Source: an uncultured Gammaproteobacteria bacterium
GTDB taxonomy: Bacteria; Pseudomonadota; Gammaproteobacteria; Arenicellales; Poriferihabitantaceae
NCBI GenBank assembly: GCA_937992195.1
Contig: CALKKV010000011.1
Span: 1 to 64,000, forward strand
Direction of reading: 5' to 3'
Length of the DNA stretch: 64,000 nt
This document shows positions 2,807 through 43,946 of the stretch, piece by piece (position 1 is the first letter of the stretch; every line of letters begins with the position of its first letter). The notes beneath the pieces are model-generated. The model saw only the letters and a list, made by a program, of their open reading frames with translations. It did not search any database and was not told the DNA's origin. The position numbers and the translations under genes were made by a program.

Positions 2807-2849
2807 CGGTAATTATTGATTAACTTTTTATTATTCAGAGGACAATTTT

Positions 2850-3011: not shown

Positions 3012-3289
3012 GCTATTGTCGGGAACAGACTGCGTTATTTCAGCGGACCCGGAGTAGCTATCGGATGATAAGAATAGATCTACCTGCAAATGCGGGCGTA
3101 AATTTAATCTAAACTGCTCCGACGCAAGCTAAGGTTTATCCGCTTGAATTTTGAATGGCCGTTGTGAACAAGTGCGTAACTGTTAGCTTGTAAGTGATAC
3201 AAGCGGTCGGTAGATTTTTTTATATGTAAGTTCACATTGTCTTTGGTTCGAAACAAATAGAGAATTTGTGCGCGGGTGTACGCAGTGTT

Positions 3290-5197: not shown

Positions 5198-5307
5198 TTT
5201 CGAAAGTAAAGAGCAATTGAATAGAGTTGCGTTAATTTTGAACTATTGCTTGGATTTGCGGTTAAATATACGCACATAAACAAGATTCTTATAGAGAGGT
5301 AGCTAAA

Positions 5308-5805
5308 ATGCAGTCAGAAGATCTCCGCGCAATGCAGTCCCCACTAAAATCTCAGTATAAAGATGATCCAGGTAGCGCGATGATTACGCTTTCCGCCGAA
5401 TCAAAGCTTGCTGAGGGCATTACATGCAAAGTCGACACAGGTCGCGCAATGGTGCAGGCAGGATTGCATCCAGCGACAGGAGGAGACGGACTATCTGCTT
5501 GTTCTGGCGATATGTTGCTAGAGGCTCTTGTGGCCTGTGCGGGTGTGACGCTCAACGCGGTGGCGACGGCGTTATCCATCAAACTCGATGATGCCAGCGT
5601 TCATGCCGAAGGGGATCTGGATTTTCGCGGTACTCTTGGTGTTGATAGAGACGCGCCTGTTGGGTTTAAAGAAATCCGTATGCGTTTCGATCTGAAAACA
5701 GATGCTGATGACGAGCAGCTGGCATCGCTGATCAAACTTACAGAGCGATATTGCGTGGTCTATCAGTCCCTCGCAAGTCCGGCGAAGTTAAGCGTTACTT
5801 ACTAG
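5308..5805 (+). CDS. OsmC family protein
   Basis: 165-residue OsmC/Ohr-superfamily protein, expected to reduce organic hydroperoxides with a Cys pair in the cytoplasm. The two family cysteines are visible: C77 in the helix LLEALVACAGVTLNAVA and C149 in ERYCVVYQSL. ATG 5308 has a GAGAGGTAG ribosome-binding site 8 bases upstream. The 3' end overlaps the convergent dehydrogenase gene by 11 bases. OsmC members often sit in catabolic clusters; the link to neighbours is inferred. Confidence 0.88.
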   Translation: MQSEDLRAMQSPLKSQYKDDPGSAMITLSAESKLAEGITCKVDTGRAMVQAGLHPATGGDGLSACSGDMLLEALVACAGVTLNAVATALSIKLDDASVHAEGDLDFRGTLGVDRDAPVGFKEIRMRFDLKTDADDEQLASLIKLTERYCVVYQSLASPAKLSVTY

Positions 5806-6748: not shown

Positions 6749-7035
6749 GTGTTTACTCCCTATAGCGACCTACGCTCAATCATTTTATGATTCTAATGAC
6801 AATTGAAATTAGATGATCCATTAGCAGTCACTATCATACAGAAAATTCTCTAGGTGTTAGTGTTGCCGTGTTGTAATGTGACATCTACGAAGAGGGGAAA
6901 AAGATAAAGGTTATGCACGAGGGGCTACAAGATATCTCAGATAAAACGAACTTAGATGTCTATTAGAAGGTAGCAAACAATCGTTACCAGTTCAGCGAGG
7001 ATCGCACGCAACGATAGAAAATACGCTATGAGTCT

Positions 7036-8691: not shown

Positions 8692-9586
8692 CTTTTAATC
8701 CGCTGGACTTATGCAAAAACCAATCGACAACAAAGTTTACGCCGATGGTTAACAATGCGATTGCCATGGCTGGGATCAGTGGGGTGTAGTCATCGAATGT
8801 GATGAGATCTGCTGTGTCTCTTACCATTGAGCCCCAATCTGCAGTTGGTGGCTGTATGCCAAGACCAAGAAAGCTCAGCGCGCTGATGGTGAGAAATACG
8901 AAACAAAACCGCAGACCGAATTCGGCGGCGAGCGGCGGCATGATATTCGGCAATATTTCTCGGATAGTGATCCAGCCTAATCCTTCGCCTCGCAAGCGAG
9001 CGGATTCAATAAAATCCATTACCACCACATTGACACTGACTGCACGAGTTATTCGAAACACACGGGTAGAGTCCAATACACCAATAATTAAAACCATATT
9101 GACGACGGACTGACCGAAGATAGTCAGCAGTAACATCGCGAAAATCAGTACCGGAATTGCCATTAACACATCAACAATTCGGCTAAGTATCTGATCGGTC
9201 CAGCCACCAATTGCAGCGGCGAGCAAACCGCATATCCCGCCAAGAAGAAATGCGAGGAGTGTCGTTAAAAATGCAATTCCTACCGTATTTCTTGCGCCAA
9301 AAATAATACGCGTCAGCATATCTCGACCGAGATTGTCGGTTCCCAGAAGGAATTCATCGCTCCATTCTTCAAACTGATTTCCGACAATTTCTGCCTCGCC
9401 ATAGGGTGCGATCCAGGGCGCAAAAAGCGCAACGAAGACATAGGTAACTATAACGAGTAAACCAAACTTCGCACTAAGGGGCGCTTTGCGGAGCTCCCGC
9501 AAAACCACAGTGAGTTTGCTTTCGACTTGCCTAAGAGGGGGCGGGCTGCTGTCGGCAGTGTCGATTGTTTTCGGTTGCTCGCTCAT
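8681..9586 (-). CDS. ABC transporter permease, DppC/OppC type
   Basis: 301-residue inner-membrane permease with an N-terminal helix after a charged tail (GLLVIVTYVFVALFAPWIAP), the family segment LLGTDNLGRDMLTRIIFGAR, and the EAA-type coupling loop ESARLRGEGLGWITIREILPN (21 residues; key residues E-A-G-I-LPN). It pairs with the DppB-type permease; its ATG overlaps the stop codon of that gene by 4 bases (ATGA on the minus strand), and its own 3' end overlaps the ATPase gene by 11 bases, so all three are translationally coupled. Confidence 0.92.
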   Translation of the reverse strand: MSEQPKTIDTADSSPPPLRQVESKLTVVLRELRKAPLSAKFGLLVIVTYVFVALFAPWIAPYGEAEIVGNQFEEWSDEFLLGTDNLGRDMLTRIIFGARNTVGIAFLTTLLAFLLGGICGLLAAAIGGWTDQILSRIVDVLMAIPVLIFAMLLLTIFGQSVVNMVLIIGVLDSTRVFRITRAVSVNVVVMDFIESARLRGEGLGWITIREILPNIMPPLAAEFGLRFCFVFLTISALSFLGLGIQPPTADWGSMVRDTADLITFDDYTPLIPAMAIALLTIGVNFVVDWFLHKSSGLKDEH

Positions 9587-10539
9587 TTTGGATGCAATAG
9601 TCTGGGATTAGTCAGGATCGACAAGATATCCGCAATCAAGTTGAGAAGAATGTAGGTTGCCGCAAAAATAAGGCAGCAGGCTTGTACAACGGGTAAGTCC
9701 CGACGCGACACGGAGTCAACTAATAACTGCCCCAATCCTGGATAAACGAACACCACTTCTACTACAACTACCCCAACAATAAGATATGCCAGGTTAAGGA
9801 CGATGACGTTAATGATTGGAGCCCAGGCATTGGGTAATGCGTGGTGGGTAATAATTCGTCTTCGCGTCATGCCTTTCAACGCCGCCATTTCGATATAGGG
9901 ACTCGCGAGAAGATTGATAATTGCCGCACGGGTCATTCGCATCATGTGCGCGACTACTACCAGTGTGAGCGTGAGTGCTGGAAGAAATGTGCGATACATT
10001 CGCTCAAGTATCGGCGTGTCTAAAGTAACGTTGGCAAGACTGGGGAAAAATCCCCATTTCACCGATACAAACAGCATCAGAATGTATGCAACAAAAAATT
10101 CCGGTGTGGAGATTGAACTCAGGGTAACGACGTTTACCGAGCGGTCGTACCAGGTGTTGCGATACAGGGCAGCCAGAATTCCTAACACCAACGCTAGCGG
10201 TACTGCAATAAATGCTGCATAGAGAGCAAGAAAAAGCGTGTTGGCAAACCGTCCGCCAATCAGTTCGGATATTTCGCGCTTGTTGCCGATGGAGACGCCA
10301 AAGTCTCCCTGCAGGATGCCGCCAAGCCAGCTGAAGTAACGAGTGTGGAGCGGTTGATCGAGCCCCATCTGTTTTCGCAATGCGTTCACCGTGTCTTCGG
10401 TTGCGGATTGACCGAGCATTGCTTGTGCTGCATCTCCAGGAAGCAGGCTGACAGAGAAAAAGATGATGAGGGAGACGACAAACAGGGTAAGAAGTCCCAG
10501 AGATATTCTCTGTATCAGCATTCTTACGATGTCATTCAC
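9583..10539 (-). CDS. ABC transporter permease, DppB/OppB type
   Basis: 318-residue inner-membrane permease. The N-terminal helix MLIQRISLGLLTLFVVSLII and the segment LPGDAAQAMLG are typical of this family, as is the coupling loop around MAALKGMTRRRIITHHALPN. GTG at 10539 is taken as the start because GGAGG lies 9 bases upstream; an ATG at residue 7 is the alternative. It is the first gene of the minus-strand transporter operon, divergent from the binding-protein gene with 343 bases between. Confidence 0.92.
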   Translation of the reverse strand: MNDIVRMLIQRISLGLLTLFVVSLIIFFSVSLLPGDAAQAMLGQSATEDTVNALRKQMGLDQPLHTRYFSWLGGILQGDFGVSIGNKREISELIGGRFANTLFLALYAAFIAVPLALVLGILAALYRNTWYDRSVNVVTLSSISTPEFFVAYILMLFVSVKWGFFPSLANVTLDTPILERMYRTFLPALTLTLVVVAHMMRMTRAAIINLLASPYIEMAALKGMTRRRIITHHALPNAWAPIINVIVLNLAYLIVGVVVVEVVFVYPGLGQLLVDSVSRRDLPVVQACCLIFAATYILLNLIADILSILTNPRLLHPK

Positions 10540-10882
10540 TCTAAGGTTCCTCCGATTTGGGGCAATGGATTAAGCAGCTATTTGGATGAAATTTGGTATA
10601 ACAAACAGATGCTTAGGGCACGGGAGCAGGGATGATTGGTTGTCGATTTTTGATTGTATTTCATAACTCCTCGGTATTATTATGGCAAACATCGCCGGTA
10701 TAGACAAAGCGTTTTTGTGCCGAGTCCGTTTCGCGACGAATGTGAACAAAAAAATATGCACAAAAAAGGGTATAGTTAGGGTAGGAATAGCGCCTCCTTG
10801 ACCTAGATCAGTGTTCTGGAGTGCAATAAGAATTTCCAGGACTTGTTGAAATAGATAACCGATTTATCGAGGAACAAAACGA
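10540..10882. promoter_or_regulatory. Divergent promoter region between transporter operon and its binding protein
   Basis: A 343-base gap separates the minus-strand permease operon from the plus-strand binding-protein gene, so it must contain two promoters and probably a shared operator. A TTGACC hexamer at 10798-10803 is a possible -35 for the binding protein, but no convincing -10 at the usual spacing was seen. A 63-codon frame on the minus strand here is not supported by a ribosome-binding site. Confidence 0.5.
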
Positions 10883-12547
10883 ATGCTAAGAAAATTTAAC
10901 CTATTAAATAAAATAGACCTTTCGCTCGGCATAGCCGACCGAGAAAAGGCGCACCAGGTACAAAGGTTACAAAGTGATTTTGAAACAGGTGGTATTAGCC
11001 GACGTGGGTTTATGACCGGCGCACTAGCGCTGGGTGTGTCCATGACTGCTGCCTCTGCATTATTAAACAGAGCTGAAGCTGCGACACCAAAAAAAGGTGG
11101 CCGTGCAAGAGTGGCTCTGACCGGTGGTGCGACCAGCGATACTTTGGATCCAGGTCAAATTCTCGACCTTTATATGCTGAATCTGCAGTTCGGTCAGCTG
11201 AGAAACGGTTTGACTGAAGTTGCCTCCAATGGAGATCTGATACCTGAGCTTGCCGAGAGCTGGGATTCAAGTGCTGACGCAGCAACCTGGACATTTAAAA
11301 TTCGACAAGGTGTGGAGTTCAGTAATGGTAAATCTCTGACACCGGAAGACGTTGTCGATTCGCTGAACCACCACTTAGGCGAGGAATCTACTTCTGCAGC
11401 CAAAGGTATTTTGAGTGGCGTCGAGTCAGTTAAAGCTGATGGCGACACCGTGGTCGTTAGTTTGAGCGGTGGCGATGCAGATTTTCCATTTTTAATGAGT
11501 GATTACCATTTGAATATTTGCCCATCCAAGGGTGATGGCACGATCGATTGGGAATCCGGAGTTGGAACCGGCGGGTATATGCTCGTTGAGCATGAGCCAG
11601 GTGTGCGGTCGCTAACCAAGCGCAATCCAAACTATTGGAAAGAAGGCATGGCGCATTTCGACGAAGTCGAGATACTACAAATTGCCGATGCTAGCGCGCG
11701 TAGTAATGCACTGCGTACTGGTGAAGTCGATGCCATGAATAACGTCGATGTGAAAACCATTGATCGTTTGAAGAAGATTTCGGGCATCAATATCAAAGAC
11801 ACAACGGGCAACAAGCAAATTACCCTGCCGATGCACACCAATGTGGCGCCGTTCGACGACAATAATGTTCGTCTCGCAATCAAGCACATTGTGGATCGTG
11901 AGCAATGGCTGGACAAAGTGGTCTACGGATACGGTCAGCTGGGTAACGATAACCCAATTGGCCCTGCGAATATTTATCGTGCTACCACTGATGAGCTGCC
12001 ACAACGATCTTATGATCCTGACAAAGCGAAGTTCTATCTTAAGGAAGCTGGATTGGAGAATGTCTCGATTCAATTCCATGCAGCAGAAACCGGTTTTGGT
12101 GGTGCGGTTGATGCCGGTCAGCTAATGCGCGAATCAGCGAAACCTGCTGGGATTGATATCGAAGTTATTCGCGAGCCGGATGATGGCTACTGGTCTAACG
12201 TTTGGCAAAAGAAGCCTTTCTGCGCCTGTTACTGGAGTGGTCGGCCGACTGAGAACTGGATCTTTTCTCAAATTTATGCGGCGGATGCGAGCTGGAACGA
12301 CACCAATTGGAAGCATGAGAAATTTAATAAATTGCTTCTTCAGGGCCGTGCCGAGCTAGATACCACGAAGCGTCGTGAAATCTATGTTGAAATGCAACAA
12401 ATCATTAACGAAGAAGGTGGTGTTTGCTTGCCACTGTTCCAGAGTGACGTGATGGCATTCAACGATAAACTGGCTGTTCCTGAAGTAACTGGTAATAACT
12501 GGGAGCTTGACGGCGGTAAGTTTAACGAGCGCTGGTGGTTCAGCTAA
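10883..12547 (+). CDS. ABC transporter substrate-binding protein, peptide/nickel family (Tat-exported)
   Basis: 554-residue periplasmic binding protein of the DppA/OppA (SBP_bac_5) family: GGRARVALTGGATSDTLDP after the signal, then LAESWDSSADAATWTFKIR and the segment VGTGGYMLVEHEPG are family hallmarks. The leader is a twin-arginine signal with SRRGF at residues 39-43, a hydrophobic core and cleavage near AEA at 64-66; the 38-residue region before the RR motif is unusually long. ATG 10883 has GAGGA 10 bases upstream. It delivers the substrate to the divergent permease-ATPase operon. Tat export suggests folding before transport. The ligand is unknown; position suggests a quaternary ammonium or sulfonium compound or a conjugate of one. 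Confidence 0.9.
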   Translation: MLRKFNLLNKIDLSLGIADREKAHQVQRLQSDFETGGISRRGFMTGALALGVSMTAASALLNRAEAATPKKGGRARVALTGGATSDTLDPGQILDLYMLNLQFGQLRNGLTEVASNGDLIPELAESWDSSADAATWTFKIRQGVEFSNGKSLTPEDVVDSLNHHLGEESTSAAKGILSGVESVKADGDTVVVSLSGGDADFPFLMSDYHLNICPSKGDGTIDWESGVGTGGYMLVEHEPGVRSLTKRNPNYWKEGMAHFDEVEILQIADASARSNALRTGEVDAMNNVDVKTIDRLKKISGINIKDTTGNKQITLPMHTNVAPFDDNNVRLAIKHIVDREQWLDKVVYGYGQLGNDNPIGPANIYRATTDELPQRSYDPDKAKFYLKEAGLENVSIQFHAAETGFGGAVDAGQLMRESAKPAGIDIEVIREPDDGYWSNVWQKKPFCACYWSGRPTENWIFSQIYAADASWNDTNWKHEKFNKLLLQGRAELDTTKRREIYVEMQQIINEEGGVCLPLFQSDVMAFNDKLAVPEVTGNNWELDGGKFNERWWFS

Positions 12548-12568: not shown

Positions 12569-12595
12569 AAGGCCGGTGTAGACCGGCCTTTTTTT
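12569..12595 (+). terminator. Rho-independent terminator of the binding-protein gene
   Basis: Perfect 8-bp stem AAGGCCGG / CCGGCCTT with a 6-base loop (12577-12582), followed by a run of T to 12595. It lies 21 bases after the binding-protein stop. The T-run overlaps the TAA of the convergent acyl-CoA synthetase gene, so the structure probably separates both transcripts. Confidence 0.9.
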
Positions 12596-14708
12596 ATGCC
12601 TGACATAAATCCGCTGTCTTACGAATCATTACGTCGGCGGCTACAGCTCCCTCGGGAGTGAGCATCAATGGGTTGATCTCCATTTCCAGAAGGGTGTCGG
12701 ACAGTGAAATCGCAAATGTCGCAATCGATGCAATACAGTTTGCAAGTTGATTCAAGTCTACTTTTTGCCGACCGCGAAAGCCCTCGAGTAAAGGGAAAGT
12801 TTTCAGGCTTTTTAAAGCTTCAATTATCTGTGCATTAGATACCGGTAGTAGAAGTGTCGCCTTGTCATTGATTAGCTCAACCATTACGCCACCGCTGGCG
12901 ATGACCATCACCATTCCAAACTGTGCGTCGCGCGTAATTCCCACTAGCAATTCAGCAATAATATCGCTCTGCATCGCTTCTACCAGAAACTCGTCGATCT
13001 CGAGGTCAGCCGTGTGGTTATGCACATCCTTTTTCATTGTTTGCACTGACTCGATCAGCTCCTTTTGATTTCGAATATTTAACCTGACGGCGCCGACTTC
13101 CGTCTTATGCGGCAGCTTTTCACTAATTGCTTTCAATACAACAGGGTAGCCGACCGTTGTAGCAGATTTTTCTATGCTTTCTTCTCCCGCTTTCAGACTG
13201 TTCGGCACGTTTACACCGGCGTTCTTTAACGCTTGTTTTCCCTGCCATTCGTCCAAGAGAATAGCTGTAGATGTAGTTGGATTAAGCAACGGTTCAATTA
13301 ATTTTACAGCGCGTTGATCTTCTAAAAGCATCGCTTTTCGAGAGCCATATCGACAGGCATTTGCCAATGCAGCAACACCGTTATCCAATCCCTGTAGTGG
13401 TGTGATTCCGCGCTCGATTAATATAGATCGAATTTTCGCATCGATGTTTTCAGGTAAATCACTGCAAACAGCTGCCGGTATTTTCAGCTGCGAACAAGCG
13501 TCTGCGAATGACAAAGCGTCGTTCATATAAGGCGTTTGGTCTGCATGAATGTGCGCTGGTGGAAAGTCCTGGATGATGCATGCTGCGTCATATCCATCCT
13601 GAACCATCGCGCTAAACACCTTTGGCATCACTTCCCGATTACCCCACAGTGGAGTAGTGTAGTCCAGCGGGTTTGTGACCGTGGCAATTTCCGGTAACAA
13701 TGCATCAAGCGCTTGAGTTGATTTATTCGACGGTGGTGGTAAAAAGAGATCTACCTGATCGCAGGCGTCAGCGAGCATAGCGGCATCACCGCCAGAACAT
13801 GTGAAGCCGGCAATGCGCTTGCCTGATGGCGCCCCTGAAACAGAAAGAAACTTAAGCGTCTCTAGCATCTCCGAAGGTGAGTTACAGCGAATGATGCCTA
13901 AGCGGTCAAATAGCGCTTGGAACGCATCGTCGGAACCAGAAAGTGAACCGGTATGGGTTACCGAAAGTTCCGCCGCAATTTTTGATCGACCCGCTTTAAT
14001 AATAGTGATTGGTTTCGAGAGCGACAGCGCTTTGTAAGCCGCTTTAGAAAACGCGTTTACGTTGTGAATACCTTCGGCATAAATGCCGATAGCGCGGACT
14101 CTTTCATCATCAAGCAATACCTCCATATAATCTTCAATGGCGAGCACAGATTGATTGCCAGCGGAGACGATATGGGTGATTGGAACGGACCGATCGTTCA
14201 TTGTCATGTTTGCCGGAAGCATGCCGCTTTGCATAATCAGCGCAATACCTTGGCTGCAATTGTGCCGACCTGCACCGAAGGGCCATAAAGTCGCGCCGTT
14301 AGTGTAGTTCACTACCCCATAACAATTCGGGCCAACGAATGCCATATCGCCTGCTGCATCGACCAGCTGTCGCTCCAATGTTTGGCCGTCCTCTCCGAGC
14401 TCGGCATAGCCTGCGGTAAAACACACGGCTCCGCCTGCCCCAATCTTGCTGAGTTCTTTGATCACGTCACAAGTAGCAGACCGAGGAGTCGCAATAAAAA
14501 CTGCGTCGGGGGCCTCGGGTAAATCGGCTACCGAGGGAAAACAAGGGACGCCACCAAGCGTTTCCCGGCTGGGATTTACTCCCCACACGGGGCCGGAAAA
14601 AGTCTGCGCGCATTGTTTGGCGCTAAAAGCCGCGTCATCACCTCCGATAAAGGCGATATGCCGCGGGTTGAGCAATCGATCGAGATTGCGTCGCATAGTC
14701 GATTTCAT
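12594..14708 (-). CDS. NDP-forming acyl-CoA synthetase (ACD superfamily, fused alpha-beta)
   Basis: 704 residues combining a CoA-binding Rossmann domain (1-130), succinyl-CoA-ligase-like domains (150-460; GPNCYG at 126-131, phospho-His H252 in SVTHTGSLSG) and an ATP-grasp domain (490-700; YPVVLKAISEKLPHKTEVG, MEINPLML). The family couples acid + CoA + ATP to acyl-CoA + ADP + Pi, reversibly. Members include acetate-CoA ligase, FerA feruloyl-CoA synthetase and DddX, the ATP-dependent DMSP lyase. Divergent to the CaiD-LcdH-BKACE operon with 166 bases between, it could activate crotonobetaine or carnitine, recover ATP from betainyl-CoA, or be DddX-like. A conspicuous Trp355 follows the NPLDYTTPLW segment in the substrate domain, which could suit a cationic ligand; that is inference. 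Confidence 0.85.
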   Translation of the reverse strand: MKSTMRRNLDRLLNPRHIAFIGGDDAAFSAKQCAQTFSGPVWGVNPSRETLGGVPCFPSVADLPEAPDAVFIATPRSATCDVIKELSKIGAGGAVCFTAGYAELGEDGQTLERQLVDAAGDMAFVGPNCYGVVNYTNGATLWPFGAGRHNCSQGIALIMQSGMLPANMTMNDRSVPITHIVSAGNQSVLAIEDYMEVLLDDERVRAIGIYAEGIHNVNAFSKAAYKALSLSKPITIIKAGRSKIAAELSVTHTGSLSGSDDAFQALFDRLGIIRCNSPSEMLETLKFLSVSGAPSGKRIAGFTCSGGDAAMLADACDQVDLFLPPPSNKSTQALDALLPEIATVTNPLDYTTPLWGNREVMPKVFSAMVQDGYDAACIIQDFPPAHIHADQTPYMNDALSFADACSQLKIPAAVCSDLPENIDAKIRSILIERGITPLQGLDNGVAALANACRYGSRKAMLLEDQRAVKLIEPLLNPTTSTAILLDEWQGKQALKNAGVNVPNSLKAGEESIEKSATTVGYPVVLKAISEKLPHKTEVGAVRLNIRNQKELIESVQTMKKDVHNHTADLEIDEFLVEAMQSDIIAELLVGITRDAQFGMVMVIASGGVMVELINDKATLLLPVSNAQIIEALKSLKTFPLLEGFRGRQKVDLNQLANCIASIATFAISLSDTLLEMEINPLMLTPEGAVAADVMIRKTADLCQA

Positions 14709-14874
14709 ATCATCAGTATCGGGAGCTGTCTCAATAATTCAAAAGTAGAATGCGCACTTGATAAGGGTCGTTAGCGGATAGGCTGCGCCGGCATTTAATG
14801 CTCGCACGCTTGTACCAATTTGAGAAGGCTTGATCTACACTTCTTGGCAACAAAATATTTGCAAACGAATCGCT

Positions 14875-15687
14875 ATGTATACCGGAGATCAAGAAGTACA
14901 GGTTAATTGTGAGGGCGCTATCATGTTGATTAAAATCGACCGACCTAAAGCCAACGCGATTGATTTACCTACGAGCCGGAAGTTGGGCGAAGCTTTCGTG
15001 CACTTCCGCGATAACGATGCGTTAAAAGTAGCGATTATTACAGGGGCTGGTGAAAAGATTTTTTCCGCGGGATGGGATCTAAAAGCGCTTGAGCAAGGTG
15101 AAATGCCGCTGGAGAACTGGTGGGAATCAGAAGATGCAAGTCTCGGTGGATTTGCCGGGATTACCGAAATGTGGTCATTAAAAAAACCGGTGATTGCGGC
15201 GCTGAATGGATTGACAATCGGTGGCGGCTTTGAGATCGCACTGGCCTGCGATTTAATCATCGCAGCCGATCATGTTGAGTTTTCATTACCTGAATTACCG
15301 CTGGGCATTATTCCCGATGCTGGAGCGATTCAGCGCTTGCCAAAAAGACTGCCGTATAATATCGCACTGGAGATGCTGTATCTTGGCAGGCGGATGCCTG
15401 CTACAGAAGCCGCGCATTATGGATTGATTAATAAAGTAGTTCCCGCAGATGAGTTGATGAGTTCTGCTATGGAGTGGGCAAACAAATTGTCAAATGTTGC
15501 GCCGCTTGCATTGCAGGCAATTAAAGAAGTGCTAAGTTGTATCGAAAGTGAAACGGTTGAACAGGCGTTTCATAAAATGCGAAATAATGATCTGCCAATG
15601 TATCGTGCGATGCTTTCGTCTTCGGACGCAGAAGAAGGCATCAATGCGTTTGTTGAGAAACGCGAAGCAAAATTTGAAGGTACTTGA
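14875..15687 (+). CDS. Enoyl-CoA hydratase, CaiD-like (crotonobetainyl-CoA hydratase)
   Basis: 270 residues, crotonase fold. Oxyanion-hole segments are GEKIFSAGWDLKAL and GLTIGGGFEIALACDL; the acid/base segment FSLPELPLGIIPDAG is present. It closely resembles E. coli CaiD over the whole length (IDRPKANAID, AIITGAGEK, GWDLKA, GGFAG.TE, KKPVIAALNG), so hydration of crotonobetainyl-CoA to carnitinyl-CoA is the best guess; other short enoyl-CoA substrates are possible. ATG 14875 is preferred over TTG 14830 because it matches the N-terminus of CaiD. The stop codon overlaps the ATG of lcdH (TGATG), so translation is coupled. Confidence 0.82.
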   Translation: MYTGDQEVQVNCEGAIMLIKIDRPKANAIDLPTSRKLGEAFVHFRDNDALKVAIITGAGEKIFSAGWDLKALEQGEMPLENWWESEDASLGGFAGITEMWSLKKPVIAALNGLTIGGGFEIALACDLIIAADHVEFSLPELPLGIIPDAGAIQRLPKRLPYNIALEMLYLGRRMPATEAAHYGLINKVVPADELMSSAMEWANKLSNVAPLALQAIKEVLSCIESETVEQAFHKMRNNDLPMYRAMLSSSDAEEGINAFVEKREAKFEGT

Positions 15688-16646
15688 TGCTAGATCAAAA
15701 ACCAGAATCTGTTAAATATATCACCTGCATTGGCGCTGGACCTATTGGCGGTGGCTGGGCTGCGTACTATTTATCGCGGGGCTATCAAGTAACGAGCTAT
15801 CTTCACGATCCTTCGGAAATTGATCAACTTGAAAAACTTATTTCGAACGCCTGGATCAGTCTCGAGGAAATTGGTTTAGAACCTGGTGCATCATTAGATA
15901 ATTTTTCTTCGACTAGTGATTTAAGCAGCTCGATAGAGCGCGCAGAATTTATTCAAGAGAGTATCCCGGAAGTGCTGGAGCTTAAGCAAAATCTGTACAG
16001 TGAGCTTGGCGACTTGGTAGACCCGCTAGTAGTGATCGCTTCAAGTACTTCAGGTATGTCGATGACGGACATCTCCGCACGTTGTGCGACGCCGGAAAGA
16101 ACCGTCGTTGCGCATCCCTTTAATCCACCGTATCTTTTACCACTTGTTGAGATGATTGGTGGCGAACAAACTACCGCACAGGCATTAGAGTGGGCCAGAC
16201 AATTTTATCTTGTTGCTGGCAAAAGCCCTTTGGTTATGAAAAAGGAAATTCCCGGTTTTATCGCGACGCGACTACAGGAGGCTATTTGGCGTGAGGCGTT
16301 ACATATGGTGGCGAATGACGAAGCTACAGTAGAGCAAATCGATCAGGCCGTTGTAAATGGCCCGGGACCCCGATGGGCCTTAATGGGGCCATGTGAAATA
16401 TTCCATGTCGGTGGCGGTGAAGGAGGTATGGGGTATTGTTTGGATCAATTTGGTCCGGCTTTAAAGCTGCCCTGGACGCGTTTGGTGGCGCCTGAGTTAA
16501 CAGCGGAACTGCGAGAAGCAATGGTTGATGGTTGTGTTGAAATGACCGACGGAAAGGATTTCACGGCGTTAAGTCAAAAGATGAATACAGGTTTGGTTGA
16601 AATCGCCAAATTAAAGAAACAGCAATCTACAGAGAAGAAAAAATGA
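15687..16646 (+). CDS. lcdH: L-carnitine dehydrogenase
   Basis: 319 residues of the 3-hydroxyacyl-CoA dehydrogenase superfamily. It has the NAD motif [13 protein letters not shown], the catalytic segment [16 protein letters not shown] and a C-terminal domain with [11 protein letters not shown] and [21 protein letters not shown], which are features of L-carnitine dehydrogenase rather than of acyl-CoA-specific members. It would oxidise L-carnitine to 3-dehydrocarnitine with NAD. Many homologues carry a fused C-terminal thioesterase that releases betaine from betainyl-CoA; this one ends at residue 319 without it. ATG 15687 shares one base with the upstream stop, and its own stop overlaps the next ATG by 4 bases. 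Confidence 0.85.
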
Positions 16647-17521
16647 ATCATGATGTCATTATTACCTGTGCGGTTACGGGAGCCGGCGCTACTACCGATA
16701 AGAGCGAACATGTACCAGTGACGCCAGAGCAAATCGCAGCCTCATCTATTGAGGCTGCTAAGGCGGGCGCTGCCGTTGTCCATGTTCATGTCAGAGATCC
16801 AGAAACCGGAGAGGGCTCTCGCGATGTTGGATTGTTTAAAGAAACAGTGAAACTGATTCGTGAGAGCGGCACTGATGTGATTTTAAATCTGACCGCAGGG
16901 ATGGGCGGCGACTGGGTGCCCGGTGATGAGGATCCTGCAATGCCTGGGGCCGGTACGGATATGATCGGTCCTGAAGAGCGATTGGCGCATGTTGTTGAGT
17001 GCAAGCCTGATATCTGTAGTTTGGATTGTGGGACTATGAATTTTGGTAATGGCAATTACACCTATATCAACACCGCGCCATTTCTCAGAAAGATGGCGAA
17101 AATGGTGCAAGACTTAGGCGTGAAGCCCGAGCTGGAAGTTTTTGATTTGGGACAGATTCGTCTCGCTCGAGCTTTAATTGACGAAGGCTTAATCGATGCG
17201 CCACCGTTATTTCAGATTTGCCTGGGGATACCCTGGGGAGCGGGAGCAGATACCGAAACTATGGCGGCAATGAAGCAAGCGTTACCGGCTGATGCGTTGT
17301 GGGCGGGGTTTGGCATTTCAAGAATGCAAATGCCTATGGTCGCACAGGCGGTGTTGTTGGGCGGGAACGTGCGTGTTGGGCTGGAAGATAATATTTATCT
17401 TGATCGCGGTGTATTAGCGACAAATGCAATGTTGGTGGAACGAGCTAGCGAGATTATTGAGCGGATGGGAGCAAGAATTTTAGGACCGGATGAGGCCAGA
17501 GCAAAAATTGGTTTGTCTTGA
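16643..17521 (+). CDS. Beta-keto acid cleavage enzyme (BKACE, DUF849), probable 3-dehydrocarnitine:acetyl-CoA type
   Basis: 292-residue TIM-barrel enzyme. The metal-binding [10 protein letters not shown] segment follows strand 2, and the barrel continues with [20 protein letters not shown] and [15 protein letters not shown] enzymes condense a beta-keto acid with acetyl-CoA and split it to a new acyl-CoA and acetoacetate. Directly after L-carnitine dehydrogenase with an ATGA overlap, 3-dehydrocarnitine is the natural substrate, giving betainyl-CoA and acetoacetate. Substrate assignment depends on context; other beta-keto acids remain possible. It ends the three-gene coupled operon. Confidence 0.87.
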
Positions 17522-20937: not shown

Positions 20938-21840
20938 ATGCTAAATTCAAAGCAAGTGAGTTCTTTTCAAGAGAAGGGCTATGTGCTGATTGACGATGCA
21001 GTCGACCAGCAAGAAATTCTAAATATTAATTCACAAATTGATAAATGGGTTCATCAAAGCAGGCAGTACGATGCCAACTATGGTGCTTTGATTGATGGTC
21101 AACCAAGATTCGACCTCGAGCCTGGACACTGTAAGTCTTCACCAAAGCTTCGACGGGTAACAAATCCTCAAGAAGTATCTGAAGCAATCAAGCATACTCT
21201 GCTAAAAGATAGCATTGCGAAATATATGGTGCCGATTCTAGGCCCAGATATTAAATTCGATCATAGCAAGATTAACGCGAAACACCCGGGAATGAAGTCT
21301 GATATTAAATATCATCAGGATCATATCTTTGAACCGCAAACTAATGATTCCGTTATCGTGGCGTTACTGATGCTGAATGACTCTACTGAAGAAAACGGCT
21401 GTCTCAAAGTTGTACCTGGCTCCCACGAATATCGATACCCGCATACTAGAGATGGAAAGTTTACCGGAACGATTGATGACGCGTATACCGAGCACTTTAA
21501 TAGTAATGCTGATTTGATTGAAGCAAAGGCCGGTAGCCTTTGTCTGATGCATACTTGGGCCGTACACGGCTCTGAACCTAACCGATCTAGTGATCCACGC
21601 AGGCTGCTGATCACTGAGTATAAAGCTGCGGATGCATTTCCGTTGACCCCGCATAAATTACCCTCCAGATTTATGGATGCGGTGGTTTTAGGGTGTGAAG
21701 CCAGGGCTGCACGTCACCGGGAAGTGCTTGATTTCGAGCTGCCGGATTTTTATGAAGGCGATTCTTTATTTGACCTGCAGGAAACAGCGGCAGCCGAGAC
21801 GGGACAATCTGATCTAGGTTTCGCTGTCGGCGCGGTTTAA
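20938..21840 (+). CDS. Phytanoyl-CoA dioxygenase (PhyH) family Fe(II)/2-oxoglutarate oxygenase
   Basis: 300-residue double-stranded beta-helix oxygenase. Iron ligands are H126 and D128 in YHQDHIF and the distal His near 210 in WAVHGSEPN; the 2-oxoglutarate-binding Arg follows in RRLLITEYKA. The GCLKVVPGSH segment is a PhyH hallmark. The family hydroxylates small molecules (ectoine, phytanoyl-CoA, natural products); this substrate is not apparent. ATG 20938. The 3' end overlaps the convergent EamA gene by 27 bases. Confidence 0.87.
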   Translation: MLNSKQVSSFQEKGYVLIDDAVDQQEILNINSQIDKWVHQSRQYDANYGALIDGQPRFDLEPGHCKSSPKLRRVTNPQEVSEAIKHTLLKDSIAKYMVPILGPDIKFDHSKINAKHPGMKSDIKYHQDHIFEPQTNDSVIVALLMLNDSTEENGCLKVVPGSHEYRYPHTRDGKFTGTIDDAYTEHFNSNADLIEAKAGSLCLMHTWAVHGSEPNRSSDPRRLLITEYKAADAFPLTPHKLPSRFMDAVVLGCEARAARHREVLDFELPDFYEGDSLFDLQETAAAETGQSDLGFAVGAV

Positions 21841-36913: not shown

Positions 36914-38269
36914 TTATTTATCATGGGTTGACTGCACCGCTCTGGCGAGCTCCGCTTCGGCAGCTGAATCAATATGAATCGCTTCGTCAGTATCCAGCAT
37001 ACCCGCATCAGGGTCGTTGTATACAGCGGTGTCTAACTTGCCTTCGCTTTTTGCAACAACACATGAAACGGTGGCGTCGCCAGAAACGTTCACTGCGGTT
37101 CGGATCATATCCATCAAGCGGTCAACACCGAGCACAAGACCAATACCTTCAACCGGCAGGCCAACCTGGGTGAATACCATTGATAGCATAATCAAACCAA
37201 CGCCCGGAACACCCGCTGTACCAATTGAAGCAAGTACCGACATCAGGATAACCGTGAGATAACCAGCCACGCCAAGTTCAACGCCGTACACGTTTGCGAT
37301 AAACACTGTCGCAACACCTTGCATGATTGCGGTACCGTCCATATTAATGGTGGCGCCAAACGGAACGGTGAAAGAAGCCACTGAGTTGTTTACACCAAAT
37401 CGCTCGGTAACTGTACGCATGGTGACCGGGATTGTGGCGTTAGAGCTGGCAGTACTAAATGCAAATACCTGTACGTTGCGGATCTTCTTTAAAAACATCG
37501 CCGGATTTAATCCAGAGAATACTTTTAATACGATCATCAACGTAACGAACAGGTGGATCATCAAGGCACCAACCAGCACGCTGACATAACCGGCGAGCGA
37601 CGCTAATAATCCGAGACCGAGGGTTGCCACGGCTTTGGCAATTAGTGCAAACACCGCATAGGGCGCGACCGACATAACGATATTAACCATCTTCATCATT
37701 ATCTCGTTGGCTACTTCCGCACCTTCAACAAAGCCTCTTGCCTTGGTACCAACCAGTAACATACTGATTCCAACCAGGATAGCGAAAAAGATAATTGGCA
37801 ACATGTCGCCATTCGCCATAGCGTTGATGGGGTTGGTAGGAATGATATCGATCAAAACTTGAGTCAAAGGTGGAGACTCTTTTCCAGAAAACGCAGAATC
37901 TGAAACCTGGTCCATACCTTTACCAATTCCAAAGCTAGCAGCAATTAAAATAGCAGTTGCGATAGCGATAGCAGTTGTCATCATATACAGCGCGAATGAC
38001 TTTCCGCCAACACGGCCCAACATTCTAATATCGCCAATTCCGCATACGCCGCAAATCAGTGAAAAGAATACCAGTGGTACAACCAACATCTTTAATGCGT
38101 TAACAAACATCTTTCCGATCACGTGGAAAAGACCGTTCACTATATAGGTATCAATGAATCCACCCGGTGAATTCATACCCGTTAGGTTAATGACTAAACC
38201 AACAATGATGCCCAATACCATCCCAAGTAAAACTTTGACGGTGAGGCTCATTTTTTTTTCTTCGCTCAT
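36914..38269 (-). CDS. Dicarboxylate/amino acid:cation symporter (DAACS family)
   Basis: 451-residue secondary transporter of the GltP/DctA fold with eight helices and two re-entrant loops. HP1 has FAFSTASSNATIPVTMRT and TM7 has the cation motif NMDGTAIMQG; the HP2 segment IGTAGVPGVGLIM and TM8 DRLMDMIRTAVNVSGDA follow. It imports glutamate, aspartate or C4-dicarboxylates with Na+ or H+. The C-terminal 40 residues are acidic and disordered. It stands alone with its own terminator. Confidence 0.92.
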   Translation of the reverse strand: MSEEKKMSLTVKVLLGMVLGIIVGLVINLTGMNSPGGFIDTYIVNGLFHVIGKMFVNALKMLVVPLVFFSLICGVCGIGDIRMLGRVGGKSFALYMMTTAIAIATAILIAASFGIGKGMDQVSDSAFSGKESPPLTQVLIDIIPTNPINAMANGDMLPIIFFAILVGISMLLVGTKARGFVEGAEVANEIMMKMVNIVMSVAPYAVFALIAKAVATLGLGLLASLAGYVSVLVGALMIHLFVTLMIVLKVFSGLNPAMFLKKIRNVQVFAFSTASSNATIPVTMRTVTERFGVNNSVASFTVPFGATINMDGTAIMQGVATVFIANVYGVELGVAGYLTVILMSVLASIGTAGVPGVGLIMLSMVFTQVGLPVEGIGLVLGVDRLMDMIRTAVNVSGDATVSCVVAKSEGKLDTAVYNDPDAGMLDTDEAIHIDSAAEAELARAVQSTHDK

Positions 38270-38731: not shown

Positions 38732-40291
38732 ATGAGCGGAGAAGAAAGTACTGTCCCACGCCGCCCAAGACGGGGTGCGCGGGATGCCTTACGTAAGATA
38801 AGAAGTCAACGCGATAGCAAAATGCTCCCAGCACTGAAAAGAAATTTACCGCTGGTTGAGCCAATGAATCAGGAACAGATTGAGAGAATCGATGCTGCTT
38901 CGATGGACATACTTGAAGAAGTGGGCGTGGTGTTTCGTGACCCTGTCGCTCTGGAGGATTGGAAATTAGCTGGTGCCGACGTTCGAGGGGAGCGGGTGCA
39001 TCTCGATCGAGGGTTGGTGAAAGAGCTAATCAAGACTATCCCGTCCTCGTTCACCTATCACGCGAGAAACCCCAACAATAATTTACCGTTTGGCGAAAAC
39101 CATTCTATCTTCGTACCGATGACCGGTGCGCCGTATATTGTCGACTTGGAAAACAAACGGCGTTGGCCAACGCTCGTTGACTTAGCCAATTTTCATAAGC
39201 TTAGCCATATGTCTCCCGTGCTGCATTCCTCGGCGCATCATATTGTTGAACCGATGGACCACGTGGTCGCCCATCGCCATCTTCGTATTACCTACTCTTC
39301 GATGAAGTATTCGGATAAAACGTTTATGGGAATGACCACGAGCCCAAAAAATGCCGAAGATGTTATGGAGATGTGTGCCATTTTATTTGGTAAGGAGTTT
39401 ATGGAAACCCATCCGGTGGTTACAGGAAATTGCAATGGCAATTCACCGCTGGTTTGGGATAGCACGATGTTGGGTGCAATGCGGGCGTTTTGTAAAGTAA
39501 ATCAGCCCGTACTTTGTTCTCCTTTTGTGCTTGGTGGCGCAAATACACCTGCGTCCACTGCGCCAGCGGTTGCGCAGTTAAATGCTGAGGCATTGTCAGC
39601 ACTCGCATACACTCAGGTGATTCGAAAAGGCTGTCCTGCAATCTACGGACACTATCTTTCGACTGTTTCCATGCAGTCAGGCGCACCCATGGCGGGGACG
39701 CCAGAGATTAGCCTAATGAATTTTATGATTGGTCAAATGGCGCGTTACTACGATGTGCCCTGGAGAACTTCGAATACGCTCGGTGGTGCAAAAACATTTG
39801 ACGCTCAGGCCGGCTATGAAAGCGCCACCACTTTAATGGCGATCATGATGGCTGGTGCAAACTATTGCTGGCACTCGGCTGGTTGGAACGAAGCGGGTAT
39901 GCATTGCTCGATGGCGAAGTTTGTTGTAGATGCAGAGCAATGCGCAATGGCATATCGAATGGCCGAAGGAATTCGATGGGATGATTTTGAAGAAGCGCTT
40001 GCTGCGGTTCGGGACATTGGGCCGGGAGGCCACTACCTTGGTCATCAACATACGCAAGATAATTTCCAGAGAGCTTTTTTTATGCCAAAACTGTTTGACA
40101 ATAATTCGGTTGAACAGTGGCAGGCAGAAGGATCGAAGGAGATCAACGAGCGCGCGCTGAATGAGGCGAAGTCAATGTTAAACGACTATCAGGAGCCCAA
40201 ACTTGATCCGGCTGTGGATGAAGCGTTACGCGATTATATCGCCCGACGCGAAACAGAGATTCCGGCTGTTGATGCATTAAACAATGAATAG
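38732..40291 (+). CDS. MttB-superfamily methyltransferase (non-pyrrolysine), trimethylamine/betaine methyltransferase family
   Basis: 519-residue TIM-barrel protein of the MttB family (COG5598), with the conserved openings ILEEVGVVFRDP, GADVRGERV and the segments THPVVTGNCNGNSPLVWD, PVLCSPFVLGGA and GPGGHYLGHQHTQDNFQ. It reads through with ordinary sense codons and has no in-frame TAG, so it lacks the pyrrolysine of the archaeal trimethylamine enzymes. Characterised non-Pyl members transfer methyl from glycine betaine, carnitine or proline betaine to a corrinoid protein. No corrinoid protein or activase lies nearby. It is the first gene of a run with BetC and a demethylase-like flavoprotein, 46 bases before betC. 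Confidence 0.9.
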   Translation: MSGEESTVPRRPRRGARDALRKIRSQRDSKMLPALKRNLPLVEPMNQEQIERIDAASMDILEEVGVVFRDPVALEDWKLAGADVRGERVHLDRGLVKELIKTIPSSFTYHARNPNNNLPFGENHSIFVPMTGAPYIVDLENKRRWPTLVDLANFHKLSHMSPVLHSSAHHIVEPMDHVVAHRHLRITYSSMKYSDKTFMGMTTSPKNAEDVMEMCAILFGKEFMETHPVVTGNCNGNSPLVWDSTMLGAMRAFCKVNQPVLCSPFVLGGANTPASTAPAVAQLNAEALSALAYTQVIRKGCPAIYGHYLSTVSMQSGAPMAGTPEISLMNFMIGQMARYYDVPWRTSNTLGGAKTFDAQAGYESATTLMAIMMAGANYCWHSAGWNEAGMHCSMAKFVVDAEQCAMAYRMAEGIRWDDFEEALAAVRDIGPGGHYLGHQHTQDNFQRAFFMPKLFDNNSVEQWQAEGSKEINERALNEAKSMLNDYQEPKLDPAVDEALRDYIARRETEIPAVDALNNE

Positions 40292-40337
40292 CATAGCGGT
40301 TATTGCTGATCGCAAATCATGACAAAGTGGGCACCAT

Positions 40338-41885
40338 ATGAAATTATATAACCAACGACCCAATATTTTGATTATCCAAGCTGACCAGTTAGCAGCGAAT
40401 TTCCTCGGGGCATACAACAACCCAATTTCTGTAACGCCGCATATTGATGCAATGGCAAATTCAGGGGCGGTGTTTGATTCTGCTTATTGTAATTTTCCGC
40501 TTTGCGCACCTTCACGGTTTTCAATGATGTCTGGTCAGCTGGCGTCGACTGTAGGTGCCTACGATAATGGTGCAGAGTTTCCATCTTCCATTCCAACCTT
40601 TGCGCATTATTTACGTGCAATGGATTATCAGACGACTCTGGTCGGAAAAATGCACTTCGTCGGTGCGGATCAACTACATGGATTCGAACAACGCTTAACG
40701 ACGGACATTTATCCAGCGGACTTTAACTGGACCGGTGATTGGACTGAGACGCAGTCCAATCATTCAAATGACAAAGTCACCTTTACCGGCGCCGGTGTGT
40801 GCTTGAGAAACGTGCAAATGGAGTACGACGAAGAAGTTTGTCATCGCGCTGAACGTAAGCTCTATGATTATGCACGTAACAAGGATGAACGACCTTTTTT
40901 TCTCTTTACTTCGATTTCCCATCCCCATGATCCCTATCAATGTTTGCAGGAACACTGGGATCTGTATCGTCATGATGAAGTAGATATGCCGAAGGTAGGC
41001 AATATTCCAGATGCTGAATTGGATCCGTATAGCAAACGTCTGCGCACGCAGTATGGCCTGGATGACTTTGATCCCAGTGAAGAACAAATTCGAGTGGCCA
41101 GACATGCTTACTATGGGTCGGTAAGCTATGTGGACAATATGGTAGGGCGGTTGTTTGATATTTTGCGCAAGACCGGTTTGGATAAAGATACTGTTGTTAT
41201 TCTGACTAGCGATCATGGAGATATGATGGGCGAGAGAGGGCTATGGTATAAAAAGTCGTTTTTCGAAGCTTCTTGTCGGGTGCCGTTAATACTTAGCGGA
41301 CCAGGGGTGACGACTCGTCGTATTGATGCAAATGTTTCGCTGGTTGATTTGTTACCAACGCTGGTTGAAATCGGCAAGAGGGATGATGACTCACCTGTTG
41401 TTGAGAAAATTGAAGGACAAAGTCTATGGGGGTTGGCTACAGGGAGTGAAACGCAAAGAGATTCTGCGGTGTTCGGCGAAAACCTCGCTGAAGGATCTCA
41501 AGCGCCCATCTTGATGGTTAGAAAGAACCGTCTTAAGTACATCGTCAGCGGAGTCGATCCGGAGCAATTATTTGATCTTGAAGCAGACCCGGATGAGCGT
41601 ATTAACCTCGCGGGAAATTCGCAATATCATCAGCAACAACAGCATTTATCTGATCTTGCGAAACAAAAATGGGATATGGGGGGATTAACTGAGCAGGTGA
41701 AACTAAGCCAATCACGGCGGCTGTTTTTAAGACAGGCGCTGCGAAAAGGAGTGTCTGCGGATTGGGACTATGCCGCACCAGATCAGCTTGTCGAGCACTG
41801 TTTGCGTGGTACCAAAATCTATAACCAATGGGCCTACGATGGCGCAATTGGTTTGCAAGTTCCCAAAGATAAAAAGCAAGATTAA
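40338..41885 (+). CDS. betC: Choline-sulfatase
   Basis: 515-residue type I sulfatase that hydrolyses choline-O-sulfate to choline and sulfate in the cytoplasm. Metal Asp D16 is in IQADQLAANFLGAY; the formylglycine signature is CAPSR with C56. The segments GAYDNGAEF, VGKMHFVGADQLHGFE and RLTTDIYPADFNWT match BetC and distinguish it from aryl- and glycosaminoglycan sulfatases. SDHGDMMGERGLWYKKSFFE supplies further metal and substrate residues, and the C-terminal tail that closes the BetC tetramer is present. No signal peptide. It follows the MttB gene and is 21 bases before the flavoprotein gene. Confidence 0.92.
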   Translation: MKLYNQRPNILIIQADQLAANFLGAYNNPISVTPHIDAMANSGAVFDSAYCNFPLCAPSRFSMMSGQLASTVGAYDNGAEFPSSIPTFAHYLRAMDYQTTLVGKMHFVGADQLHGFEQRLTTDIYPADFNWTGDWTETQSNHSNDKVTFTGAGVCLRNVQMEYDEEVCHRAERKLYDYARNKDERPFFLFTSISHPHDPYQCLQEHWDLYRHDEVDMPKVGNIPDAELDPYSKRLRTQYGLDDFDPSEEQIRVARHAYYGSVSYVDNMVGRLFDILRKTGLDKDTVVILTSDHGDMMGERGLWYKKSFFEASCRVPLILSGPGVTTRRIDANVSLVDLLPTLVEIGKRDDDSPVVEKIEGQSLWGLATGSETQRDSAVFGENLAEGSQAPILMVRKNRLKYIVSGVDPEQLFDLEADPDERINLAGNSQYHQQQQHLSDLAKQKWDMGGLTEQVKLSQSRRLFLRQALRKGVSADWDYAAPDQLVEHCLRGTKIYNQWAYDGAIGLQVPKDKKQD

Positions 41886-41906
41886 ATTCAGCGAAAATAT
41901 TAAATC

Positions 41907-43946
41907 ATGGTGAGTAATGATCCGCTATTGCAGTCATTTCAGCTGCGCCACTTAAGTTTGCGTAATCGCATACTGAGCACGTCCCATGCGCCTGCGTTTG
42001 CCGAGAGTGGTCACCCTAGGGATCGATATCGGTTATATCATGAAGAAAAAGCCAGAGGTGGCGTTGCCTTAACCATGATTGGCGGATCAACCAATATTTC
42101 TCCGGACAGTCCTTCGGTTTTTGGACAACTTTATGGTGGTGATGACAGTATTATTCCATGGTTTCGTCAGTTAACCGACGGAGTTAAACAGCATGGAGCC
42201 GCCATCATGTGCCAGATCACGCATATGGGGCGCCGCACATTAAGCGACTGTGGTGATTGGTTGCCTGTAATCAGTGCGTCTGAAAAACGCGAAAGAGCAC
42301 ATAGATCGTTTCCTAAGCCCATGGAGAAACACGACCTTCGCCGGGTAGTACGTCACTTTGCCGATGCTGCTGCACGTTGCCAGCAGGGTGGATTCGATGG
42401 CATTGAACTGCTGTCCCATGCGCATTTGCTGGGCCAATTTCTCTCGCCATTGATCAATGACAGAACAGATGATTACGGTGGTAGCTTATCCAATAGATTG
42501 CGGCTTACTTTTGAAGTGCTAGAGGCGATACGCGATCGTGTCGGCAGTGAATTTGTGATTGGACTGCGACTCACCGGTGATGAGCTGCTAGCTGACGGGT
42601 TGACCCAGGACGAAGCTATTGAATCAGCAAAACTTCTTGAAGCTAGTGGTATGGTCGATTTTCTAAACATATTGGTGGGCGCTCCTTACGATGATCTGGG
42701 GCTGGCAGGGTGGGTCGCGCCAATGGGTAATCCATTACCTAACGATTTGACGATAGCCGGACATATGCGTGCAGCGGTCTCCCTGCCGGTTTTTCATGCA
42801 GGCGGAATTGCTGATATCAGTACAGCGCGCCAAGCTGTGGTAAATGGGAAAGTAGATATGGTGGGAATGACCCGTGCACAGATTGCGGATCCGTATCTAG
42901 TTCAAAAGTTAATAGATTCGAGAGAGGAAGAGATACGGCCTTGCGTCGGATTAGGTTACTGCGTTGACCGCGTTAATCAAGGTAAGGACGCGGTATGTGG
43001 TCATAACGCTGCCACTGGGCGTGAAGCGCAGTTTAACCATGTCTTTCACCGTGATATCTCTGCGGATAAAAAAGCAGTGGTGGTTGGTGGTGGCCCGGCA
43101 GGGATGGAAATATCTCGTGTCTTAAGCGAGCGCGGAATGCAGGTTGTTTTATTTGAAGCGCGTAGCGATTTAGGCGGGCAGCTGGCATTGGCTGCCAAAG
43201 GCAATTTGCGAAGACAAATTTGGGGCATCGCACACTGGTTACAGTCCGAACTCGAGAGACTGTCGGTTGATATCAGGTATAACAGTTATGCCGAGGAAGA
43301 CGACGTGTTAGCTGAGCAGCCGGACCTGGTAATTATCGCAACAGGGGGTATGCCGCCATCGATTGCAATTGAGGGTGGTGAATACGCTATTTCTACTTGG
43401 GATGTGTTGGCCGGCAAAAAATGTAAAGGCCAGGTTCTCTTGTTTGATGATCTTGGCGATCACCAGTCTGCGGTGACAGCCGATGTGTTAGCTAGCAACG
43501 ATGCGGAGGTGCTACATATAACACCAGATCGAACATCGCTTATGGAATTGGGCCCTACCAATAGCGCGGTCGTTCTACGAGATCTTTATCAAAAAGGGGT
43601 CAAGTTTGATGTGTTCTGCGATCTGGTAAAAATTAACAAAAGAGAGGGTCAAACTGTTGCCACAATTCGACATGTGCTCTCTGGAGAAATTATAGAGAAG
43701 ATGGTCGATCATGTGGTGGTTGAGCAGGGAATCAGTGCTGTAACAGATATTTATCAGGCACTTATCCCTTTTTCAAGAAACGCAGGGGTCGTTGAGTTAG
43801 ATGCGTTGGCTGCAGGCACGCTTGATTTACCAAAAGTTGATCCAAACCGACACTTTAATTTGATCCGCGTCGGAGATGCAGTTTCCGGCAGAAATTTGCA
43901 TGCGGCAATATATGATGCATTAAGAATTGGCTCGTTGTACCAATAG
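41907..43946 (+). CDS. FMN/FAD/Fe-S oxidoreductase of the trimethylamine dehydrogenase/DgcA family
   Basis: 679 residues: an old-yellow-enzyme TIM barrel (1-335; GGFDGIELLSHAHLLGQFLSP and FHAGGI), a cysteine region (346-364), and an FAD/NAD domain (390-679; VVVGGGPAGMEISR). Relatives include trimethylamine and dimethylamine dehydrogenases, dimethylglycine demethylase DgcA and N-methylproline demethylase. In place of the usual four-cysteine set it shows C346, C352 and C364 with Leu at 349. Given the adjacent MttB homologue and BetC, demethylation of dimethylglycine or a related N-methyl compound is the likely role. Exact substrate uncertain. Confidence 0.85.
   Translation: MVSNDPLLQSFQLRHLSLRNRILSTSHAPAFAESGHPRDRYRLYHEEKARGGVALTMIGGSTNISPDSPSVFGQLYGGDDSIIPWFRQLTDGVKQHGAAIMCQITHMGRRTLSDCGDWLPVISASEKRERAHRSFPKPMEKHDLRRVVRHFADAAARCQQGGFDGIELLSHAHLLGQFLSPLINDRTDDYGGSLSNRLRLTFEVLEAIRDRVGSEFVIGLRLTGDELLADGLTQDEAIESAKLLEASGMVDFLNILVGAPYDDLGLAGWVAPMGNPLPNDLTIAGHMRAAVSLPVFHAGGIADISTARQAVVNGKVDMVGMTRAQIADPYLVQKLIDSREEEIRPCVGLGYCVDRVNQGKDAVCGHNAATGREAQFNHVFHRDISADKKAVVVGGGPAGMEISRVLSERGMQVVLFEARSDLGGQLALAAKGNLRRQIWGIAHWLQSELERLSVDIRYNSYAEEDDVLAEQPDLVIIATGGMPPSIAIEGGEYAISTWDVLAGKKCKGQVLLFDDLGDHQSAVTADVLASNDAEVLHITPDRTSLMELGPTNSAVVLRDLYQKGVKFDVFCDLVKINKREGQTVATIRHVLSGEIIEKMVDHVVVEQGISAVTDIYQALIPFSRNAGVVELDALAAGTLDLPKVDPNRHFNLIRVGDAVSGRNLHAAIYDALRIGSLYQ

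Follow-up and report, generated by a model that had tools for sequence, protein, structure and literature searches.

The present analysis concerns a run of three genes in a 64,000-nucleotide stretch of DNA (hereafter the window; contig CALKKV010000011.1, positions 1 to 64,000) from an uncultured, marine-type gammaproteobacterium of the Poriferihabitantaceae. The run, found at the coordinates given in an earlier note on this DNA, lies entirely on the plus strand and encodes a non-pyrrolysine MttB superfamily protein (38,732–40,291, 519 amino acids), a choline-sulfatase-like formylglycine sulfatase (40,338–41,885, 515 amino acids), and a flavoprotein of the OYE/trimethylamine-dehydrogenase type that belongs to the DgcA/HpbA/StcD family (41,907–43,946, 679 amino acids), with gaps of 46 bases between the MttB and sulfatase genes and 21 bases between the sulfatase and flavoprotein genes. 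The genome of the source bacterium (G000) is an incomplete assembly of 3.76 Mb in 95 contigs, 86% complete. Beyond the window, genes were taken as plain open reading frames, and the samples of genomes used for comparison are subsets.

The MttB protein matches PF06253 with 725 bits over positions 1–500 of the 500 of the model, and its reading frame has, as the earlier note stated, no internal TAG codon, the only TAG being its own stop codon. It is one of nine PF06253 paralogues in the genome, and orthologues with 73–86% identity are found in both gamma- and alphaproteobacteria. In the MttB tree, which was built without the MtpB, MtcB, and MtyB sequences and has some long branches and a bootstrap that is not fully settled, the window protein falls within a 22-row clade (support 100/99). 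This clade is separate from the one in which a paralogue on contig C3 of the same genome groups with 4yyc, which we take to be a protein of S. meliloti, and the D. hafniense MtgB sits further out still. The window MttB, which does not group with the glycine-betaine-type MtgB, is predicted to be a betaine:corrinoid methyltransferase of a distinct clade, while the C3 paralogue is, as judged by its grouping, a glycine-betaine-type MtgB and the better candidate for glycine betaine. No substrate-binding residues of MtgB were found in the literature.

The earlier note had reported that no corrinoid protein, reductive activase, or Rieske oxygenase is nearby, and had left the methyl acceptor open. The first statement holds for the contig of the window, on which no B12-binding_2 protein, RACo/RamA, or Rieske alpha subunit was found, but not for the genome, where the proposed search for an MtgC-like corrinoid protein did locate one. 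Contig C3 carries the only B12-binding_2 protein and the only RACo-type activase of the assembly, in a cluster (coordinates of locus L009) composed of the corrinoid protein, an MtgC homologue with the DxHxxG motif (1653–2351), a DUF1638 protein (2392–3060), a pterin-binding methyltransferase homologous to MtgD (3444–4349), a RamA-type activase (4768–6789), an AraC/GlxA-type regulator, and the MttB paralogue mentioned above (8984–10,519). In Ruegeria pomeroyi, MtgC and MtgD are needed both for growth on glycine betaine and for methionine synthesis, and the route of the methyl group from the corrinoid to tetrahydrofolate is published for aerobic marine bacteria; single genomes may have as many as seven PF06253 genes, for which other methylated compounds are proposed as substrates (PMC12478193). 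Several MttB members of Eubacterium limosum likewise use one corrinoid protein that is encoded elsewhere (PMC8604678). Given the C3 cluster and the shared corrinoid proteins of these published systems, the lack of a corrinoid gene next to the window MttB is expected rather than puzzling, and the methyl acceptor is no longer open, since a B12 acceptor system, as recognized by homology, is encoded on C3.

The nine MttB paralogues share the 3.76 Mb assembly with 19 Rieske oxygenase alpha subunits (PF00848). One paralogue (L010, 4985–6502) lies amid apparent cobalamin biosynthesis genes, those on C57 and C6 (among loci L013, L014, L015, and L011) adjoin DMGDH-like fusions of DAO and GCV_T, and the one on C69 shares some bases with a GCV_T gene, at the end of the latter.

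The neighborhoods of the MttB orthologues provide information about the possible substrate. The comparison covered 100 loci, namely the best 80 named MttB loci and 20 relatives, three of which (L146–L148) are more distant (about 50%). At a loose limit of 35% identity, and with many loci broken by contig ends, the genes found near MttB encode a DAO-type flavoprotein (71 of 100 loci), an aldehyde dehydrogenase (69), a DHDPS-family enzyme (66), a GntR regulator (57), an SDR (26), an epimerase-type enolase (7), and ProX (5). The enolase of L145 scores 531 bits against 4e8g/4izg/4j1o and 448 bits against 4h2h, all of which are presumably hydroxyproline/proline betaine epimerases (HpbD). An enolase-family gene also lies directly 3′ of the plasmid-borne orthologues of Cereibacter sphaeroides, Alisedimentitalea, and Mesorhizobium, the first of these loci containing in addition a glycine betaine/proline transporter gene. 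In L141, the order is ProX, the MttB orthologue, mtgC, mtgD, and ramA. The hydroxyproline pathway is made up of enzymes of the DAO, DHDPS, and aldehyde dehydrogenase superfamilies (PMC4113996). Genes of choline oxidation are not regular neighbors at the 100 loci. Homarine, too, was weighed as what the orthologous operon might act on but was set aside, the literature being unhelpful and the enolase match pointing to proline betaine.

The flavoprotein combines an Oxidored_FMN domain (PF00724) with a pyridine nucleotide-disulphide oxidoreductase domain (Pyr_redox_2) and carries the motif CVGLGYC-x11-CGHNAATGRE. It is 46–48% identical to proteins annotated as the N-methyl-L-proline demethylase HpbA and 47% identical to a pSymB protein that we take to be StcD. 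In a tree without characterized DgcA sequences, it forms a three-row clade (100/100) with the proteins of Nioella and G014, outside the HpbA/StcD clade, into which a further protein of the same genome, on C44, falls. No DgcB gene adjoins it, the rest of the genome not having been searched for DgcB. We predict it to be an N-demethylase of a tertiary amine; the earlier note's suggestion of two candidates for N-demethylation is supported, with the MttB homologue and the DgcA-family flavoprotein as candidates for successive steps.

The association of these two genes is not restricted to the window. Homologues of the flavoprotein with 58–65% identity occur in 13 of 394 genomes of the family to which G378 belongs, and in three of these, the alphaproteobacteria G378, G988, and G1113 (loci L252, L280, and L281), the gene follows MttB in the same order and on the same strand, the gap being 4 bases in one case and 25 in another, while one small open reading frame intervenes in the third. 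Elsewhere in this set of genomes, the two genes are not together. The locus of G378 is that of the Nioella record L124, and G988 and G1113 share their surroundings and are therefore counted as one event. Chance alone would produce two independent linkages in 13 genomes with a probability of about 1e-4 or less, by rough arithmetic with some 4,000 genes per genome; the linkage of MttB and flavoprotein is beyond chance. In L219 (G017:C431), an MttB gene, an enolase-like gene, a flavoprotein of the HpbA/StcD clade, and a second MttB gene follow one another, succeeded by apparent serine dehydratase and homocysteine methyltransferase genes.

The sulfatase scores 619 bits against the NCBIfam choline-sulfatase model TIGR03417 (cut-off 433). 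Compared with the Sinorhizobium meliloti enzyme SmCS, it keeps the catalytic residues D14, Q15, C54, R58, N75, K102, H104, H201, D296, H297, and K309, and also Y123, W129, and E386. In SmCS, the ammonium group of choline is sandwiched between Trp129 and His145, and Asn498, Leu499, and Asp500 of the neighboring subunit gate the active site (PMC9063841). In the window enzyme, the hairpin is three residues shorter, such that Trp142, Trp143, Tyr144, and His145 have no counterpart, and the tail reads YNxWAY in place of the C-terminal gate; of the clamp (Trp129/His145, Trp143, Asn146) and the gate (Asn498-Leu499-Asp500), just Trp129 is left. The same hairpin change is found in relatives of 59–66% identity and more widely, the C6 sulfatase of the same genome being one example, and these clamp-less relatives also exceed the TIGR03417 cut-off. 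The C25 sulfatase of G000 has the canonical hairpin and tail, with 711 bits on the same model, and is, on these features, the canonical choline sulfatase of the genome. One clamp-less choline-sulfatase-like gene, in L283 (G004:C117), follows ProX-ProV-ProW; the four genes are possibly an operon that joins transporter and sulfatase to handle a sulfate ester resembling a betaine. The sulfatase gene adjoins MttB at none of the 100 other MttB loci, the linkage being seen at the window locus only. In view of the clamp loss, the relative beside ProX-ProV-ProW, and the missing linkage elsewhere, a role of the sulfatase in the pathway of its two neighbors is possible but unproven.

From the directly observed genes and families, the machinery on C3, the MttB–flavoprotein linkage, and the altered choline-binding residues, we infer the methyl transfer, the substrate, the order of the steps, and any participation of the sulfatase as follows. 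The window MttB would take one methyl group off a quaternary betaine, for which a cyclic compound of the proline type is the likeliest candidate, and transfer it to the only corrinoid protein encoded in the genome, MtgC on C3. MtgD would then pass the methyl group on to tetrahydrofolate, while the RamA and DUF1638 proteins would keep the cobalamin reduced. The tertiary product would then lose a remaining N-methyl group by oxidation through the flavoprotein. As a first step, the sulfatase may split a sulfate ester of the betaine or of a precursor, which is probably not, or not only, choline-O-sulfate. Support for this scheme comes from the C3 cluster, from the ProX and mtgC-mtgD-ramA genes around the orthologue in L141, from the epimerase, DAO/ALDH/DHDPS, and ProU-type transporter genes beside MttB orthologues, from the position of the window MttB apart from the C3 paralogue and 4yyc in the tree, and from the flavoprotein, both by the linkage of its clade to MttB in three other genomes and by its identity to the HpbA-annotated proteins. 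We give about an even chance to this reading, in which the genes form a module that demethylates a betaine, most likely a cyclic one, by way of a corrinoid and uses a flavoprotein of its own to remove the second N-methyl group.

A number of observations weigh against it. The HpbD-like epimerase accompanies few of the orthologous MttB genes (7 of 100), and none of the epimerase, DAO, and DHDPS genes is present in the window. A search of the 86% complete genome for close homologues of the latter two enzymes was likewise negative, which would, on the other hand, fit plain proline betaine as the substrate, since this would need neither enzyme. The window flavoprotein is not a member of the HpbA/StcD clade, the sulfatase–MttB linkage recurs at no other locus, and the betaine-demethylating activity of the window MttB clade is itself predicted by sequence comparison.

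The earlier note had suggested a route from choline sulfate to dimethylglycine. In the full form of this route, choline-O-sulfate is hydrolyzed, enzymes from other parts of the genome oxidize the choline to glycine betaine, MttB converts the latter to dimethylglycine with MtgC as the methyl acceptor, and the flavoprotein demethylates dimethylglycine. Such a route is consistent with the score of the sulfatase above the choline-sulfatase cut-off and with its conserved Trp129, Tyr123, and Glu386. Related flavoproteins, moreover, adjoin glycine-betaine-type MttB and DMGDH-like genes in L227 and similar clusters, and carnitine-dehydrogenase-like genes in the window could supply glycine betaine. However, the choline clamp is mostly gone while a canonical choline sulfatase is present on C25, the C3 paralogue in its mtgC/mtgD/ramA cluster is the better candidate for glycine betaine, and the MttB clade of the window is found with genes of the proline/hydroxyproline-betaine type and not, as a rule, with those of choline oxidation. 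We therefore do not favor the route and regard it as possible but unlikely, the cyclic-betaine route being the likelier of the two. A further alternative, in which MttB methylates tetrahydrofolate directly and no corrinoid protein is used, would be in line with the absence of a corrinoid gene from the window contig, but it was dropped on finding the C3 cluster: with a full corrinoid system in the genome, mtgC-mtgD-ramA adjoining the orthologue in L141, and all characterized MttB relatives using corrinoid proteins, it is extremely improbable.

The sulfatase may instead be an unrelated co-transcribed insertion between an MttB and a flavoprotein that act jointly on a betaine. The flavoprotein gene directly follows MttB in G378 and G988, with no sulfatase between them, and the absence of the sulfatase from the 100 other MttB loci points in the same direction, whereas the cation-binding Trp129 and Glu386 that the sulfatase keeps, as well as the clamp-less relative in the ProX-ProV-ProW operon of G004, would fit a betaine-like sulfate ester. 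We consider the insertion a serious contender, if somewhat short of an even chance; as it concerns the sulfatase alone, it is compatible with either the cyclic-betaine or the choline-sulfate route. There is also the possibility of an O-sulfated hydroxy-betaine, such as a sulfated hydroxyproline-type betaine, as a new bacterial substrate that would be desulfated by the sulfatase and then demethylated by MttB via cobalamin and by the flavoprotein at the second N-methyl group, but this we consider rather improbable.

As to the surroundings of the run, a divergent gene for an SDF-type symporter (36,914–38,269) on the 5′ side and a glycosyltransferase-like gene on the 3′ side have no clear relation to it, and scans for promoters and terminators gave signals no better than chance. 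Elsewhere in the window, crotonobetainyl-CoA-hydratase-like, L-carnitine-dehydrogenase-like (284 bits against a cut-off of 414), and beta-keto acid cleavage enzyme genes are clustered at 12,594–17,521, with peptide-type ABC transporter genes 5′ of them (7036–12,547); the cluster possibly represents a carnitine catabolism that supplies glycine betaine. Phytanoyl-CoA-dioxygenase-like genes, assigned by eye, recur in the window (20,938–21,840), in L012 (8101–8988), and in L285 and L286, and two of these genes have as a neighbor either an MttB paralogue or a sulfatase without the clamp.

It was not until 2025 that aerobic marine bacteria were shown to demethylate a betaine, glycine betaine, by way of cobalamin, and the present locus is a concrete candidate for the additional MttB homologues that were proposed to act on other methylated osmolytes (PMC12478193). 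The MttB clade, for which a cyclic-betaine substrate and a partner flavoprotein are predicted, is widespread and common to alpha- and gammaproteobacteria, with culturable hosts in Roseovarius, Nioella, and Cereibacter. The results also serve as a warning that sulfatases above the cut-off of the choline-sulfatase model may be without the choline-binding clamp.

Several known systems are close to the present one. MtgBCD(E) of R. pomeroyi, the glycine betaine demethylase/split methionine synthase of an aerobic proteobacterium, shares the non-pyrrolysine MttB, MtgC, MtgD, RamA, and DUF1638 proteins and the arrangement of several MttB paralogues with one corrinoid protein (PMC12478193). The window MttB, however, belongs to a clade other than that of the MtgB-like C3 paralogue, and it is accompanied by a sulfatase and a flavoprotein rather than by genes for glycine betaine. 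In E. limosum, with MtqC and MtqA, the substrate-specific proteins MtpB, MtcB, and MtyB likewise share a single corrinoid protein and activase whose genes lie elsewhere (PMC8604678). This organism differs in being an anaerobic acetogen, and the likeness is one of published description. In the proline/hydroxyproline betaine pathway, the first demethylation is performed by a Rieske enzyme and not by MttB. Its enzymes include HpbD and HpbA (Zhao et al. 2013 and Kumar et al. 2014, as cited in PMC4113996). MttB orthologues lie beside HpbD-like epimerase, DAO, DHDPS, and ALDH superfamily genes, the first three of which the window lacks, and the window flavoprotein is 46–48% identical to HpbA-annotated proteins. 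The sulfatase shares the family, the CAPSR motif, the catalytic residues, and Tyr123, Trp129, and Glu386 with SmCS/BetC of S. meliloti (6fny, 6g60, 7pth; PMC9063841, PMC5870055) but differs in the shorter hairpin, without counterparts of Trp142-His145, and in the YNxWAY tail that replaces the gate. The flavoprotein has the domain architecture of DgcA, HpbA, and StcD and the C-x5-C-x11-C motif followed by HN-A-TGRE, but it forms a separate clade (100/100) and has CGHN where HpbA and StcD have CIHN or CLHN. The locus represents a variation on the aerobic MttB-cobalamin system known from the literature, from which it is set apart by the clade of its MttB, by the clade of the partner flavoprotein, and by its unusual sulfatase.

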